Of a stretch of 64,000 bases of DNA, positions 34,786 to 43,802 are shown in pieces. Positions within the stretch are counted from its first letter, which is position 1; each line of letters starts with the position of its first letter. The notes under the pieces were generated by a model. It did no database searches. It had not been told where the DNA came from and saw only the letters and a list, made by a program, of their open reading frames with translations. The DNA is from Candidatus Krumholzibacteriota bacterium (GTDB lineage Bacteria > Krumholzibacteriota > Krumholzibacteriia > JAJRXK01): the NCBI GenBank assembly GCA_029262065.1, contig JAJDAC010000046.1, positions 124,001 to 188,000 on the forward strand, read 5' to 3'. The position numbers were made by a program, and so were the translations under genes.

Positions 34786-36138
34786 ATGATTCCCGCCAAC
34801 ATCCTCATCGCCGACGACGAGGTTGCCATTCGTGAGAGTATCGGAGGCATCCTGCGCTACGAGGGGTATTCCGTATTCGACGCCGCTGATGGGCCCTTGG
34901 CCATCGAGCGGCTTCGCAAGGGCGATGTCGACGTCTTGTTGCTCGATGTGAAGATGCCGGGCATGGACGGGTTCGAGGTCATGGCTCAGATGAAGAACGA
35001 TGGACTGGATATTCCCGTGGTCGTGATCTCCGGGCACGATGCCGTTTCCACCGCGGTCGAGGCGATCAAGCGCGGCGCCTACGATTTTCTGGAGAAGCCG
35101 TTCAATAAGGAAGAGCTGCTGGTTCGGATCCAGAACGCCCTGGAGAACGGTCGGCTGCGACGCGCCAACGCCGAGCTGTCCGAAGCCGCCGGATTGGGCA
35201 CCGAACTCATTGGCCAGAGCCAATCCATGCTGCGCATCAAGGCCCTGATCGAGAAGGTCGCGCCCACGCCGGCCCGCGTGCTCATTACCGGTGAGAACGG
35301 GACTGGCAAGGAGCTTGTGGCGCGGGCGATCCATCGGGGCAGCGATCGGGACAAAGGGCCCTTCGTCGAGGTGAACTGCGCCGCCATCCCCGAAGACCTG
35401 ATCGAGAGCGAGCTTTTCGGGCACGAGAAGGGGTCGTTCACCGGAGCTGGACAGCGCAAGTTCGGTAAGTTCGAGCGCGCGCACGGCGGCACGCTGTTTC
35501 TGGACGAGATCGGCGACATGAGTCCAACCGCCCAGGCCAAGGTGCTGCGGGTGCTTGAGGAAAACCGACTCGAGCGGGTGGGCGGCAACGACCTCATCAC
35601 CGTGGATGTGCGGGTGGTCGCCGCTACCAACCGGGACCTCGAGAACGAGGATGCCTTCCGCCAGGATCTGTATTTTCGGCTCAACGTCATCCAGATCCAC
35701 ATGCCGCCGTTGCGAGAACGGCCCGAGGACATCCCTGCGCTATTCGGCCACTTCATGGACCGCTTTTCGCGTGAAATGAAGCAGGCGGCCAAACCCATCT
35801 CCGAAGACGCGACCTCCCGACTGGGTCGGCACGCCTGGCCCGGGAATGTACGAGAGCTGCGAAACCTGGCCGAACGGCTGGCTATCGTGGCCGGGTCCCA
35901 GATCGAAGTGGCCGATCTGCCACCTGGAATGGGAGGGCGGGAAAGCGACCGGGGGGCGATCGAATTCCTCGACGCGCCGACCTTCCAGGAGTTCAAGAAC
36001 GCGAGCGAGGCGGTGTACATCCAGGCCAAATTGCGCCAGTACGGGTTCAACGTTTCCCGTACCGCCGAGGAGCTGCAGATGCAACGAAGTAATCTGTACA
36101 AGAAGATCCAGAAGTATGATCTGCGGACCAGCGAGTAG
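34786..36138 (+). CDS. NtrC/NtrX-type sigma-54 response regulator
   Basis: A 450-residue enhancer-binding protein. The receiver domain 1-120 has acidic pocket DDE, phosphoacceptor Asp54 and Lys104. The AAA+ domain 140-380 has Walker A GENGTGKE at 169-176, Walker B LFLDEIGD at 237-244, a sigma-54-contacting loop that reads GSFTGA at 216-221 instead of GAFTGA, and the WPGNVREL motif. A Fis-type HTH lies at the C-terminus (VSRTAEELQMQRSNLYKKIQKY). GAGGAG precedes the ATG. No histidine kinase is encoded nearby, so the partner is elsewhere. It is one of two sigma-54 activators in this region. Confidence 0.92.
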   Translation: MIPANILIADDEVAIRESIGGILRYEGYSVFDAADGPLAIERLRKGDVDVLLLDVKMPGMDGFEVMAQMKNDGLDIPVVVISGHDAVSTAVEAIKRGAYDFLEKPFNKEELLVRIQNALENGRLRRANAELSEAAGLGTELIGQSQSMLRIKALIEKVAPTPARVLITGENGTGKELVARAIHRGSDRDKGPFVEVNCAAIPEDLIESELFGHEKGSFTGAGQRKFGKFERAHGGTLFLDEIGDMSPTAQAKVLRVLEENRLERVGGNDLITVDVRVVAATNRDLENEDAFRQDLYFRLNVIQIHMPPLRERPEDIPALFGHFMDRFSREMKQAAKPISEDATSRLGRHAWPGNVRELRNLAERLAIVAGSQIEVADLPPGMGGRESDRGAIEFLDAPTFQEFKNASEAVYIQAKLRQYGFNVSRTAEELQMQRSNLYKKIQKYDLRTSE

Positions 36139-39865: not shown

Positions 39866-40096
39866 CTGACTGTCCATAGTCACACGTCCTTTACTCGCGG
39901 ACCTCTTCCCCTATAAAACTTCTTTCCATGGCGTAAGTCGCAAGCTGTGAATGGCTTGGCCGGGTTCGTGGCTCCGGGGTGGGCGCACACCTATAAAGAC
40001 TTTTAATACTTCGACGGGCTAGCTCGACAGCGCGCTGGCCGCGTTTTCAAGTCATTGTTTTATAACAACTTACGCGGTTGGCTCGGATGCCCAAAG
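39866..40096. promoter_or_regulatory. Intergenic control region with repeated AT-rich and dyad motifs
   Basis: No ORF is credible here. Two direct copies of CCTATAAA(A/G)ACTT occur at 39910-39921 and 39990-40002, and a related TTTTATAACAACTT lies near 40058-40071. An inverted pair GCGTAAGT (39931-39938) / ACTTACGC (40068-40075) brackets the region, and TGACT-N6-AGTCA lies at 39867-39882. Local GC content is lower than in the neighbours. The position 20-230 nt upstream of a sigma-54 promoter is where activator (enhancer) sites are expected. Confidence 0.45.
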
Positions 40097-40112
40097 TGGC
40101 ACATGCCATGCT
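40097..40112 (+). promoter_or_regulatory. Sigma-54 (-24/-12) promoter
   Basis: TGGCACATGCCATGCT matches the sigma-54 consensus TGGCAC-N5-TTGCW at every key base except T-to-A at the first T of the -12 box, with correct spacing of GG and GC. The predicted start is near 40123. No convincing ORF follows; the transcript would enter the structured region ending at 40494. Confidence 0.7.
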
Positions 40113-40122
40113 TTGCTACATG

Positions 40123-40494
40123 GTCAGATCGGATAACGCAAAGGCAGTCGTGATCCGGTCGTCCAGTAAGGGTCTTCGGACCACACGAGTTTCGGAGGAT
40201 GGAGAGACGAATGTCCTCTCCGTTCACCGGCTGAATGAGGAAGTTTTCCGAAAATGGGTTTCGTCGCTACGGATGTGAGAGGTGGGGTCTCGTATTCGGC
40301 CGCGACGGGAATAATGGAAAACTATCGTTCTGTCCATCCTCCGAGATCTTCGTCAGTTTTGACCCGAGCCTAGCCACGAGGCGGCCTGGATGTCTTGGGA
40401 AGGCGAGACCCAAGACGATCCGCGAAGGGCAGCTTCACAGGGATCGGGTTGTTCCTGACGGTAACGAGCCCCGGCTATGCCGGGGCTCGTTTTA
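40123..40494 (+). ncRNA. Candidate structured non-coding RNA
   Basis: About 370 nt between a sigma-54 promoter and an intrinsic terminator. Elements visible by eye include GGTC-UUCG-GACC (40171-40182, a cUUCGg tetraloop) and GGAGAG/CTCTCC (40201-40221). A long-range 11-bp helix pairs CGGAGGATGGA (40193-40203) with TCCATCCTCCG (40333-40343), exclusive in part with the previous stem. GTCTTGGG/CCCAAGAC pairs 40392-40399 with 40409-40416. GATCC/GGATC (40417-40445) encloses a GAAG/CTTC stem. It does not resemble tmRNA, RNase P, SRP or 6S RNA. A 66-codon ORF overlaps its start but begins upstream of the predicted start site. The boundaries are inferred. Confidence 0.55.
40464..40494 (+). terminator. 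Intrinsic terminator
   Basis: A perfect stem CGAGCCCCGG / CCGGGGCTCG with a 5-nt loop (ACGAGC... closing with an A-U pair) is followed by TTTTA. It ends the transcript from the sigma-54 promoter at 40097. Confidence 0.85.
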
Positions 40495-40655
40495 CTTTGC
40501 CCTCAGCCAAGACCTCTTCCCTCGGCACCTCGCCCAAACGCCCTTTTTTCGTAGCGCCGATCCACTCCGAGTCTCGTCGCCTTGTCCTCGTCTGAGGACA
40601 CCGACCTGTCGCCCGGCAGCTACGAATTGCCGGCGCCGCGCCCTTCTGGTCCCCT

Positions 40656-40753: not shown

Positions 40754-40769
40754 TGGCACGTAGGCTGCG
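40754..40769 (+). promoter_or_regulatory. Sigma-54 (-24/-12) promoter of the lipoprotein-DUF4384 operon
   Basis: TGGCACGTAGGCTGCG carries the invariant GG and GC at correct spacing and the full TGGCACG left half. The predicted start is near 40780, about 35 nt upstream of the lipoprotein ATG at 40815. Confidence 0.75.
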
Positions 40770-40814
40770 TTAGGGAATAGTGCACACACCCGTAGAACAA
40801 TGGAGGTGGGACCA

Positions 40815-41732
40815 ATGAGACTGGGCAATGAGATGGGGAAGAGGAAGAGGACGAGGACGATGATGATGCGTGGGAGCCTTTCGCTCGTGGCCGCGCTTCT
40901 GCTGTCTGGGCTGGTCGCCTGCGATGACGACGACGATTTCGCCGACGTCAATCCGCCGGCCATTCCCAACGGTGTGTTCAGCATCACGGCTGACAATGAA
41001 GTGTGGTTGGTGTGGAATCCAAACCGCGAGCGTGATCTCGACGGTTACAACATCTGGTGGAACGCCAACGGTGGAACTCGTTTCGAACTGATCGGAACGA
41101 TCGACGCCACGGATCCCACCTACTACGACCCGGGGTTTGACGCCAATGATCCGGGCGACGATTTCCTGATTTTCAGCGATATCGACGTCATCAATGGTGA
41201 GGCTCAGTACTACGCCGTGAGCGCTTTCGATCGCCACGGCAATGAGAGCGATTTGAGCCTCGAGTTCGTGCGCGATGTGCCCAGACCGGAGGGATTCGTC
41301 GATTTGACCGATCGCTTCGTCACGGCCGCGCAATCCGGCTATGACCTGAGCGGCTTGTCCGAACAGGCTCAACCCTTCAATTTGGCCACGACCGATGTGT
41401 GGTTCGAACGCCTCGGGCCAGATGGGGTGGGATTCCTTACGGTCGATCCCACGCGCGTGCTGATCCAGGACTATGGTAACGTCGGTTTCGACGTGGCTTC
41501 CTGGGCGCCGCTGAATGGTTGGTCGGCCTTGGGCCAGGTTGAGGCTATCGAAGGTCACACGTACATTCTGCGCGTGAGTGAGTCGGTCGGCGCACCCACG
41601 TTCAATTTCGCGAAGCTCACCATTCTCGACCTTGCGGCAACGTCGGTCGAGTTGCAGTGGGGTTACCAGATCGTCGAAGGCGAGCAGGAGCTACTCGTTG
41701 CTCCGCTGCCCCAGGGCGATGAAGAAGTTTAA
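40815..41732 (+). CDS. Lipoprotein with fibronectin-III-like domain
   Basis: A 305-residue exported protein. After a basic start and hydrophobic core (SLSLVAALLLSGLVAC) comes a lipobox LVAC, then an Asp-rich linker (DDDDDF). A fibronectin-III-like domain at ~45-155 is recognised by WLVWNPNRERDLDGYNIWW and YYAVSAFDRHGNES. The remaining ~150 residues form a beta-rich domain of unknown family. GGAGG lies 9 nt upstream of the ATG at 40815. The gene is led by a sigma-54 promoter and followed after 12 nt by the DUF4384 gene, so the two are probably one operon. The acidic residues right after the lipid-modified Cys are compatible with either membrane. Confidence 0.8.
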   Translation: MRLGNEMGKRKRTRTMMMRGSLSLVAALLLSGLVACDDDDDFADVNPPAIPNGVFSITADNEVWLVWNPNRERDLDGYNIWWNANGGTRFELIGTIDATDPTYYDPGFDANDPGDDFLIFSDIDVINGEAQYYAVSAFDRHGNESDLSLEFVRDVPRPEGFVDLTDRFVTAAQSGYDLSGLSEQAQPFNLATTDVWFERLGPDGVGFLTVDPTRVLIQDYGNVGFDVASWAPLNGWSALGQVEAIEGHTYILRVSESVGAPTFNFAKLTILDLAATSVELQWGYQIVEGEQELLVAPLPQGDEEV

Positions 41733-41744
41733 GGAGGAGCTGCA

Positions 41745-43802
41745 ATGAAACGTCACCACTTTGCGCTCATCCCCCTGTTTTCCGTGGTCCTGGGCTTGGC
41801 GGCGATCCCTGCCGCCGCCCAGACCTCGGGGCCGAAGATCGACATGGCCGCTCTCTGGCTTTCGGGCCAGGAACTTGGAGTCGAGGACTCCGCCGGTCGT
41901 GTCGATCCCGAGGACTACCCCGATCGTGAAATGCGAGTCGAGGTCTGGCACGACAAGGACGACGACGAGACCTACTCGCGAGGCGAGGAGTTCTCGGCTT
42001 ACTTCCGCACCAACGCGGATCTCTACGTTGTCGTGTATCGCATCGATGCCGACGGCATCGCGGAAGTCCTCTGGCCGACGTCGCGTTTCGACGATGGTTT
42101 TGTGTACGGGGAGCACGCGTACGTCATTCCGGCCCAGAAGAATGGGCCGAGGTTGCGGGTCAGCAACAGCAAGGGCGTGGAGTATCTTCAGGCCATTGCC
42201 AGTCGATATCCGTTCGACCTGCGCAACCTTGGTATGGATTTCACGTTCGCTCGCACCGACAACGACGAGCGCTACCGCTATAAAGTGGCGGGGGATCCGT
42301 TCCTGGCCGTCAACGACATCAACTACGCCATTACCGGCCTTGAGGAGGACGTAGACTACCTGGTTACCGATTGGTCGCACATCTACATCGAGTCGAAGGT
42401 CGAATACGCGCGGTACACGTGCACGCAGTGTCACACCGAAGAGGATGACTACCATCCCTACGTCGACACCTGCTCCACGGTGAACGTCTACTACGACTAC
42501 GGTTGGCACAATCGCTGGTATTCGCGGTTCGGTTGGTATCCGCTCTACTATGACCCGCCGTACTATTACTATGACTACGTGTCGTACCGTCCCTACTGGT
42601 TTTCGTACTATCCCGTGAACTACAGTTGGGCGTGGTGCAACATCTACACGCGTCCGTACTCCGTTTACGGTTGGCACGATTCGCCGTACTACGCGGGCGA
42701 CTACGGAGTCCGGTATCGGCGGGGCTACGGAACGCGGCCACTGTATGATGTCGCGTCACCGTCAACCAACTTGCGGCTACGCGACCGGGACCTACGTGGT
42801 CGTGGGCCGGCTAGTATCGCCCGGACCAATCGGCGCGGCGATCGCGATGCCATCCGTCGTGTCGACGAAACGCAGTTGGTGCGCAACGGCGTCGACCGGG
42901 ATTTGCGCACGGTTTCGCGCGATCGCAACCGGGGCGGAGATCGAGGACGCGACATCGCACGGGTCGAAGGTCGTGGAGATCGCCGTGGCGGCGTTCAACG
43001 CGATACCGAGCGCCGGCGAGATCGCACCATCGTGAGCCAGAAGCCTTTGGATCCTTCGCGAACACCTACGCGCATTTCAGACCAACCGCGGCGTGGCGTT
43101 TCGAAGCCTGGCGTTTCGAAGCCTGGAGTTGCCAAACCCGCGGATCGCACACGCGATGACCGTGGCAATGGGCGCAAATGGACGCGTCCGGTAGTTCGCA
43201 ACGGAGACCGTGACACCAACAACGGGCGCGATCGTTCGGGTACGGTTGAACGCCGTAGTCCTCGCGATCGGGGCCGGACCGTGGTTTCGCCACCCTCCAA
43301 GCCGCGCCAGGGCCAGCAGAAGCCTTCCGTGGACCGCAGCAAACCGCGCCAGGGCCAGCAGAAGCCTTCCGTGGACCGCAGCAAGCCGCGCCAGGGTCAG
43401 AAGAAGCCAGCCGTGGACCGCAGCAAGCCGCGCAAGGGTCAGAAGAAGCCAGCCGTGGACCGCAGCAAGCCGCGCAAGAAGGGTAACGATGCTCCCAACG
43501 TGAGTCGTTCGACTTCGCGTCAGGGTCGCAGCAAGCCGGCGGTGGCGCCGTCGAAGCCGCGGGGCAACAAGACATCGAGTCGAGGTGGAGGGAACGTGCG
43601 TGCGCGTTCGAGCGACAAGCGTCGCAGTGCTCCGGCCAAGCCCAGCTCCCGGTCCTCGGTGAGCAAGAAGAGTGGCAGCAAGAGCCGGAGCAGCGCCACG
43701 GTCAAACGTGGTGGCACAACCTCGCGCAAGTCGTCACCGGCTCGCAGCAGTAGCCGGGGTGGATCGCGTCGCAGCGGCGGATCCAAGAAGGGGCGTGGTT
43801 GA
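41745..43802 (+). CDS. DUF4384 / tyrosine-rich / polybasic repeat surface protein
   Basis: A 685-residue exported protein in three zones. After the signal peptide (MKRHHFALIPLFSVVLGLAAIPAAAQ) comes a DUF4384 domain (~50-200: RVEVWHDKDDDETYSRGEEFSAYFRTNADLYVVVYRIDADG). The middle zone (~200-340) is extremely Tyr/Trp-rich and contains one CTQCH (Cys226, Cys229, His230), a c-type haem-like motif. The C-terminal half is Arg/Lys/Ser/Pro low complexity with four 14-residue repeats KPRQGQQKPSVDRS. The highly basic tail could bind acidic polysaccharide, nucleic acid or the acidic cell surface. Second gene of the sigma-54-controlled operon; function unknown. Confidence 0.75.
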   Translation: MKRHHFALIPLFSVVLGLAAIPAAAQTSGPKIDMAALWLSGQELGVEDSAGRVDPEDYPDREMRVEVWHDKDDDETYSRGEEFSAYFRTNADLYVVVYRIDADGIAEVLWPTSRFDDGFVYGEHAYVIPAQKNGPRLRVSNSKGVEYLQAIASRYPFDLRNLGMDFTFARTDNDERYRYKVAGDPFLAVNDINYAITGLEEDVDYLVTDWSHIYIESKVEYARYTCTQCHTEEDDYHPYVDTCSTVNVYYDYGWHNRWYSRFGWYPLYYDPPYYYYDYVSYRPYWFSYYPVNYSWAWCNIYTRPYSVYGWHDSPYYAGDYGVRYRRGYGTRPLYDVASPSTNLRLRDRDLRGRGPASIARTNRRGDRDAIRRVDETQLVRNGVDRDLRTVSRDRNRGGDRGRDIARVEGRGDRRGGVQRDTERRRDRTIVSQKPLDPSRTPTRISDQPRRGVSKPGVSKPGVAKPADRTRDDRGNGRKWTRPVVRNGDRDTNNGRDRSGTVERRSPRDRGRTVVSPPSKPRQGQQKPSVDRSKPRQGQQKPSVDRSKPRQGQKKPAVDRSKPRKGQKKPAVDRSKPRKKGNDAPNVSRSTSRQGRSKPAVAPSKPRGNKTSSRGGGNVRARSSDKRRSAPAKPSSRSSVSKKSGSKSRSSATVKRGGTTSRKSSPARSSSRGGSRRSGGSKKGRG
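43299..43466 (+). repeat. Four 42-bp coding tandem repeats
   Basis: Four in-frame units (43299-43340, 43341-43382, 43383-43424, 43425-43466) encode KPRQGQQKPSVDRS and near variants (KPRQGQKKPAVDRS, KPRKGQKKPAVDRS). The first two and last two copies are most alike, showing recent stepwise duplication. Copy number could vary between strains. Confidence 0.9.

Follow-up and report, generated by a model that had tools for sequence, protein, structure and literature searches.

A structured RNA family beside a sigma-54 activator gene, conserved across the phylum Krumholzibacteriota

What is encoded between a sigma-54 activator gene and the small lipoprotein gene that follows it in a member of the Krumholzibacteriota: a message, the leader of the lipoprotein gene, or an RNA acting in its own right? 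The locus lies in a stretch of 64,000 nt (the window) from a 5.77 Mb draft genome of the class Candidatus Krumholzibacteriia, phylum Candidatus Krumholzibacteriota. A preliminary description, made from the letters of the window alone, had proposed a sigma-54-driven, highly structured non-coding RNA that might work as a switch through competing helices.

The gene order is activator, RNA region, lipoprotein gene (Table 1). Pfam matches were obtained for three parts of the activator protein: TPR (TPR_12, E 3e-29), sigma-54 activator (Sigma54_activat, E 2e-62) and Fis helix-turn-helix (HTH_8, E 1e-8). This agrees with the TPR sigma-54 activator of the preliminary description; the GAF domain also named there was not called by Pfam and is that description's assignment only. 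No Pfam family was found for the lipoprotein gene. An orthologue of the activator, matched by its N-terminal part, was present in all 80 genomes of the phylum examined. Another sigma-54 activator, an NtrC-type response regulator, is encoded shortly upstream of the TPR activator (34786-36138), and a DUF4384 protein with a long basic tail of SKPRQGQQKPSVDR repeats is found at 41745-43802. One genome carried a full-length paralogue of the activator (L172; G044 C1:2051593-2053758), with no promoter match or RNA behind it.

Table 1 Features of the RNA locus and its neighbours, in window coordinates.
Feature	Position	Strand	Basis
TPR / (GAF-like) / sigma-54-activator AAA+ / Fis HTH protein, 1024 aa	36791..39865	+	Pfam
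Imperfect AT-rich dyad AAGTCATTGTTttatAACAAcTTACG shortly before the promoter, a candidate activator site	40049..40074	+	sequence
-24/-12 (candidate sigma-54) promoter TGGCACatgccATGCT, also given as TGGCACATGCCATGCT	40097..40112	+	sequence match
P1 hairpin GATCGGA..CGC-AAAGGCAGTC-GTG..TCCGGTC	40127..40160	+	pairs mostly kept in 4 f1 members
Conserved strand GTCCAGT after P1	40161..40167	+	invariant in 4 members of family f1
P2 cUUCGg hairpin GGTCTTCGGACC, UUCG loop	40171..40182	+	read by eye, four sequences
P3 long-range helix TTTCGGAGGATGGA/TCCATCCTCCGAGA	40190..40203 / 40333..40346	+	covariation
Local stem GGAGAG..CTCTCC, competing with the long-range helix	40201..40221	+	sequence
P4 hairpin TCCTC..GAGGA around the ACCGG motif (40226-40230)	40213..40241	+	covariation
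P5 AGTTTTCC/GGAAAACT (40242-40249/40316-40323), enclosing P6	40242..40323	+	covariation
P6 apical hairpin GAG-AGGUGGGGU-CUC	40277..40291	+	covariation, GUGGGG conservation
3' hairpin TCTTGGGAAGGCGAGACCCAAGA (40393-40415), outer pairs to 40388-40421, GGCGAG loop at ~40400-40408	40388..40421	+	covariation
Intrinsic terminator: 13-bp stem, 3-nt loop, TTTTA	40463..40494	+	sequence
Dyad TGTCC-N8-GGACA, lying 171 nt before the -24/-12 of the lipoprotein gene	40583..40600	+	sequence
Second -24/-12 element TGGCACGTAGGCTGCG, ahead of the lipoprotein gene	40754..40769	+	sequence match
Small lipoprotein gene, start uncertain (40815 also possible)	40800..41732	+	conserved neighbour

The 372-nt stretch folded at -173 kcal/mol (z -6.2), and none of 100 shuffles folded as low; minus the terminator, the z-score was -4.3. 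All the elements named in the preliminary description were present: the UUCG hairpin, the long-range helix, the local stem, the 3' hairpin and the terminator.

By BLASTN, 58 relatives were searched. Significant similarity was found in all three other genomes of the window's family (f1), in the same interval between activator and lipoprotein gene. A covariance model of the 5' part of the RNA (R1), built from the four f1 sequences, revealed 12 further members in family f5, each behind the activator. A second model, of the RNA core (R2), was built solely from the 12 f5 sequences. R2 detected the RNA in 34 of the 80 genomes at E ≤ 3.1e-9, one copy each, and it matched the window's copy at E 8.5e-16, though the window's family is absent from the model; these E-values are rough, as the model calibration was short. 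One genome had an additional weak partial hit. The class and phylum searches with R2 covered the same 80 genomes. Together with one genome found by R1 (G002), the R2 matches gave 35 members. The activator was directly upstream of the RNA in all 35, and the core started 270-345 nt past the activator stop. A scan of GTDB genomes with the N-terminal part of the activator returned 33 loci, 27 of them with an R2 match behind the activator.

Several weak R1 hits (L032, L035, L036, L038-L040, L042, L043 and L045) were rejected as false by their sequence and context. Around four of these hits (L032, L035, L038 and L039; ~1501-2000) there is a different conserved element without Rfam match. It consists of a hairpin GGGCGAGGUGGG-CUCGCC, then GGAGGTGATCCAGTGAG, the complement of the 16S rRNA 3' end, opening a conserved frame of ~14 residues (MSxDxxGxxEVxS), and after this short frame stems with GGGAAACCCAACGyCACC and a terminator.

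The consensus of the 34 aligned cores contains the helices P3, P4, P5 and P6, with 87.7% of cells paired. Compensatory changes were seen in 46 of its 52 pairs. Changes on both sides affected 15 of 16 pairs in the helix homologous to P3 (34 sequences), 5/5 in P4, 5/7 in P5 and 20/21 in P6. Cells changed on both sides numbered 295, compared with 92 ± 10 in column shuffles and 66-103 with the partner slid; because the alignment had been fitted to the model, the count is biased towards structure, and the shuffles ignore relatedness, while the slid controls keep it. For the 3' hairpin, which was aligned without a model (A7), all 11 pairs had changed on both sides (74 cells vs 20 ± 5).

The loops are invariant while the stems vary freely. 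GUGGGG, in P6, was found in 35/35 cores and stands out as the family's best-conserved element; the GGCGAG loop of the 3' hairpin was identical in all 34 complete copies. The ACCGG motif of P4 was present in 29/35 cores. Within the window's family (4 members), the P1 pairs were mostly kept, some with altered letters, and the P2 stem varied by species (GGTC/GACC, GGGC/GCCC, GGCC/GGCC and GGCC/GGTC, read by eye in four sequences).

No conserved reading frame was found among the members, in line with the ~370 nt free of a convincing ORF in the preliminary description. The longest frames have 14-86 codons, lie in differing places and are unrelated except between close relatives. A 66-codon frame at 40078-40278 was discarded: it begins before the RNA is predicted to start, and the three nearest relatives have stops or lost sequence in it. 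The locus belongs to a structured RNA family of ~330-370 nt that is conserved across the phylum Krumholzibacteriota, with its membership, fold and synteny shown here, and the early proposal of a structured RNA has thus gained strong covariation and conservation in relatives.

Over the whole phylum, the covariance models found the RNA in 54 of the 80 genomes, a single copy in each, 35 by R1 or R2 and 19 by a third model (R3). Synteny and motif alone added 13 genomes, to give 67 of 80; the claim is weakest for this group. Among the other genomes, several loci are cut off by a contig edge or lie in masked sequence. Where a family had no R2 hit, the stretch past the activator stop mostly carried the -24/-12 element and the GUGGGG hairpin, as counted among loci with complete downstream DNA, and most also had the GGCGAG hairpin. 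In families f2, f4, f6 and f8 and the genus g39, homology was assigned by synteny and motifs; the model scores there were not convincing.

Families f3 and f7 differ in layout. There, the GGCGAG part stands apart as an element of 91 nt; a GUCAGGGG/CCCCUGAC stem closes it, and a T-run lies between it and the first RNA. TTGAC-N17-TAnnAT-like sequences, recognised by eye, precede this element. R3 was built from this element and matched 19 genomes, all within f3/f7. In these two families, one RNA appears to have become two, the first a sigma-54 RNA and the other under a sigma-70-like promoter of its own. Because the GGCGAG module appears there as a separate transcript, the single two-loop molecule is not universal. 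The 91-nt element is nearly invariant (L143, L145, L146, L151, L155, L157, L158, L170 and L174) and contains both the GGCGAGA loop and AUGGACAUCCCCUCCGGUGCU.

A strict -24/-12 match at a fixed distance before the core was present in 34/35 members, compared with 0.13% of shuffles. The window's element, already pointed out in the preliminary description, is by its sequence match and conserved position a candidate sigma-54 promoter, and the 5' end of the RNA is predicted near 40122-40125. A TAAC..TTA dyad starting 48-50 nt before the -24 element was found in 10/35 relatives (0.26% of shuffles) and is a candidate activator site. A general inverted-repeat score for this upstream region was barely above shuffles (4.5 vs 3.9); only the specific pattern at its fixed distance exceeded them clearly. 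The window's own dyad does not match the TAAC..TTA pattern of the relatives.

Most loci had the lipoprotein gene as a recognisable downstream neighbour, beginning some 190-475 nt beyond the RNA core in the members. Between the RNA and this gene, a second -24/-12 match was found in 33/34 loci, so the simplest view is that the RNA forms a transcription unit by itself. The TGTCC-N8-GGACA dyad occurred in 3/34 f1/f5 loci and in 14/26 other loci, compared with 0.18% in shuffles. Its distance to the -24/-12 of the lipoprotein gene is ~170-189 nt in f1, f3 and f6; this near-constant spacing was also noted at L149, L156, L161, L170, L174 and others. Perhaps the dyad is the site of a second regulator, upstream of a sigma-54-like promoter of the lipoprotein gene.

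The explanation we prefer, with a probability of roughly 0.6, is a new family of structured, trans-acting regulatory RNAs of ~330-370 nt, made as the output of the adjacent activator and binding a partner through their loops. Some signal would meet the TPR sensor part of this enhancer-binding protein, which would then bind upstream of the -24/-12 promoter and remodel the sigma-54 RNA polymerase. The RNA would be transcribed up to its own terminator, and its helices would serve as a scaffold displaying GGUGGGG and GGCGAGA, two hairpin loops that are purine-rich and invariant. The partner bound by the loops would most likely be an RNA-binding protein, to be sequestered or steered; mRNAs are less likely. 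From the arrangement of promoter and genes, the RNA is probably the direct output of the adjacent sensor-activator; its expression, its dependence on that activator and on sigma-54, its action in trans and the nature of its partner are what we infer.

Helices that covary while the loops stay invariant, as in this family, are what a protein-binding RNA usually shows, which suggests a protein partner. The partner would probably be a protein hitherto unlinked to such a role, or else mRNAs beyond the lipoprotein leader. A wider proposal can be offered only tentatively: a phylum-wide, Hfq-independent module in which a TPR sensor-activator has a large RNA as its dedicated first output, this RNA forms a ribonucleoprotein via its two loops, and in some families it is split.

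It is rather unlikely that the RNA is instead an antisense-type sRNA whose loops, GGUGGGG and GGCGAGA, are seeds pairing with mRNAs without Hfq. Short invariant loops on variable stems fit seeds, and in f3/f7 the second RNA has a conserved CCCCUCC that, as judged by eye, could pair with the first RNA's GGUGGGG loop; however, most of the conserved signal lies in the helices, and the beginning of the adjacent lipoprotein mRNA, the only mRNA region examined, showed no enrichment of loop complements. Hfq was found in 0/78 genomes, with matches in 5 control genomes, so these genomes lack the usual sRNA route through Hfq.

Still less probable is a cis-acting leader or attenuator, comparable to a riboswitch, that controls read-through into the lipoprotein gene. 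The RNA and this conserved downstream gene are on the same strand, and the RNA has a 3' terminator, whose stem in family f5 contains the GGCGAG hairpin, alongside a GCC-GCAA-GGC hairpin. Yet the lipoprotein gene has the -24/-12 element of its own described above, well past the core, and f3 and f7 carry an additional promoter-like element in between. The switch suggested in the preliminary description was also not borne out. The competition between the long-range helix and the local stem is real in the window's sequence, but it is not conserved in the 34 relatives. There, the duplex energy of the long-range strand pair (a-d) had a mean z of -2.28 against shuffles, and that of pair b-c, in which the 3' strand of the local stem takes its alternative partner, a mean z of -2.02. 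The competing local stem (a-b) reached a mean z of -0.38, with 9/34 below -1. The long-range helix is thus conserved and the local stem is not, and a switch by competing helices was rejected; the conserved, mutually exclusive helices of a riboswitch or attenuator were not found in the 34 sequences.

A decoy for CsrA, like CsrB or RsmZ, is very improbable. CsrA is present in the source genome and in 46/78 genomes overall, and the hairpin loops are purine-rich, but GGA is absent from the two invariant loops (GUGGGG and GGCGAG), and some genomes with the RNA gave no CsrA hit, e.g. most of f3.

We set aside a diverged housekeeping RNA (RNase P, 6S, SRP or tmRNA) as the least probable of all, with genome-wide searches covering RNase P and 6S: the RNase P RNA of the genome lies on another contig (302 bits, E 1e-99), four Rfam scans gave no credible match, with none at the locus to any family (CrcZ and 6S included) at gathering or permissive thresholds, and 6S has neither such a -24/-12 promoter nor such a branched fold. 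No match to common housekeeping RNAs was evident in the preliminary description either. In favour of this reading, the Rfam model finds no 6S elsewhere in the genome, but as it matches only 5/14 control genomes, the absence says little.

No paper joining Krumholzibacteriota and non-coding RNA was found in a search that was thin on subscription papers. With this locus comes a new family of structured RNAs, linked to a single conserved sensor-activator and conserved over a whole phylum represented by draft or metagenome-assembled genomes, and its conserved loops are ready bait for a new RNA-binding partner. Among known RNAs, CrcZ has a sigma-54 promoter, is a few hundred nt long and acts by titrating Hfq. 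The gene qrr1 is encoded beside luxO, and Qrr RNAs are ~100 nt long and Hfq-dependent. GlmY and GlmZ of enterobacteria, with GlrR, are sigma-54-linked, structured regulatory RNAs acting via an RNA-binding protein; the Krumholzibacteriota RNA differs from them in size, sequence and genomic place, and has no Rfam match. Other structured bacterial RNAs of open function, e.g. the candidates of PMC2864571, were likewise recognised by comparative genomics and a complex fold; compared with these, the position of the present RNA strongly implies a transcriptional controller. In Pseudomonas, crcZ forms its own transcription unit downstream of cbrAB (PMC8871633). The CbrB-dependent CrcZ/CrcY and the Krumholzibacteriota RNA share this place directly downstream of sigma-54 activator genes; unlike CrcZ, the latter is highly structured with covarying helices, and its activator belongs to the TPR type rather than to the response regulators. 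The Qrr sRNAs of Vibrio are sigma-54-dependent and switched on by enhancer-binding proteins (PMC10162802). With Qrr1-LuxO the shared layout is that of a sigma-54 RNA beside its activator gene, whereas the lengths differ (330-370 nt here), as does the dependence on Hfq. Because it has no Rfam match and its genomes no Hfq, the Krumholzibacteriota RNA resembles CbrB-CrcZ and LuxO-Qrr1, by analogy, in layout only and is a member of neither. In Proteobacteria, activator-adjacent sigma-54 RNAs such as CrcZ and Qrr act as hubs in the control of carbon and quorum responses; if our explanation is true, the same layout would operate, independently of Hfq, in a distant phylum.
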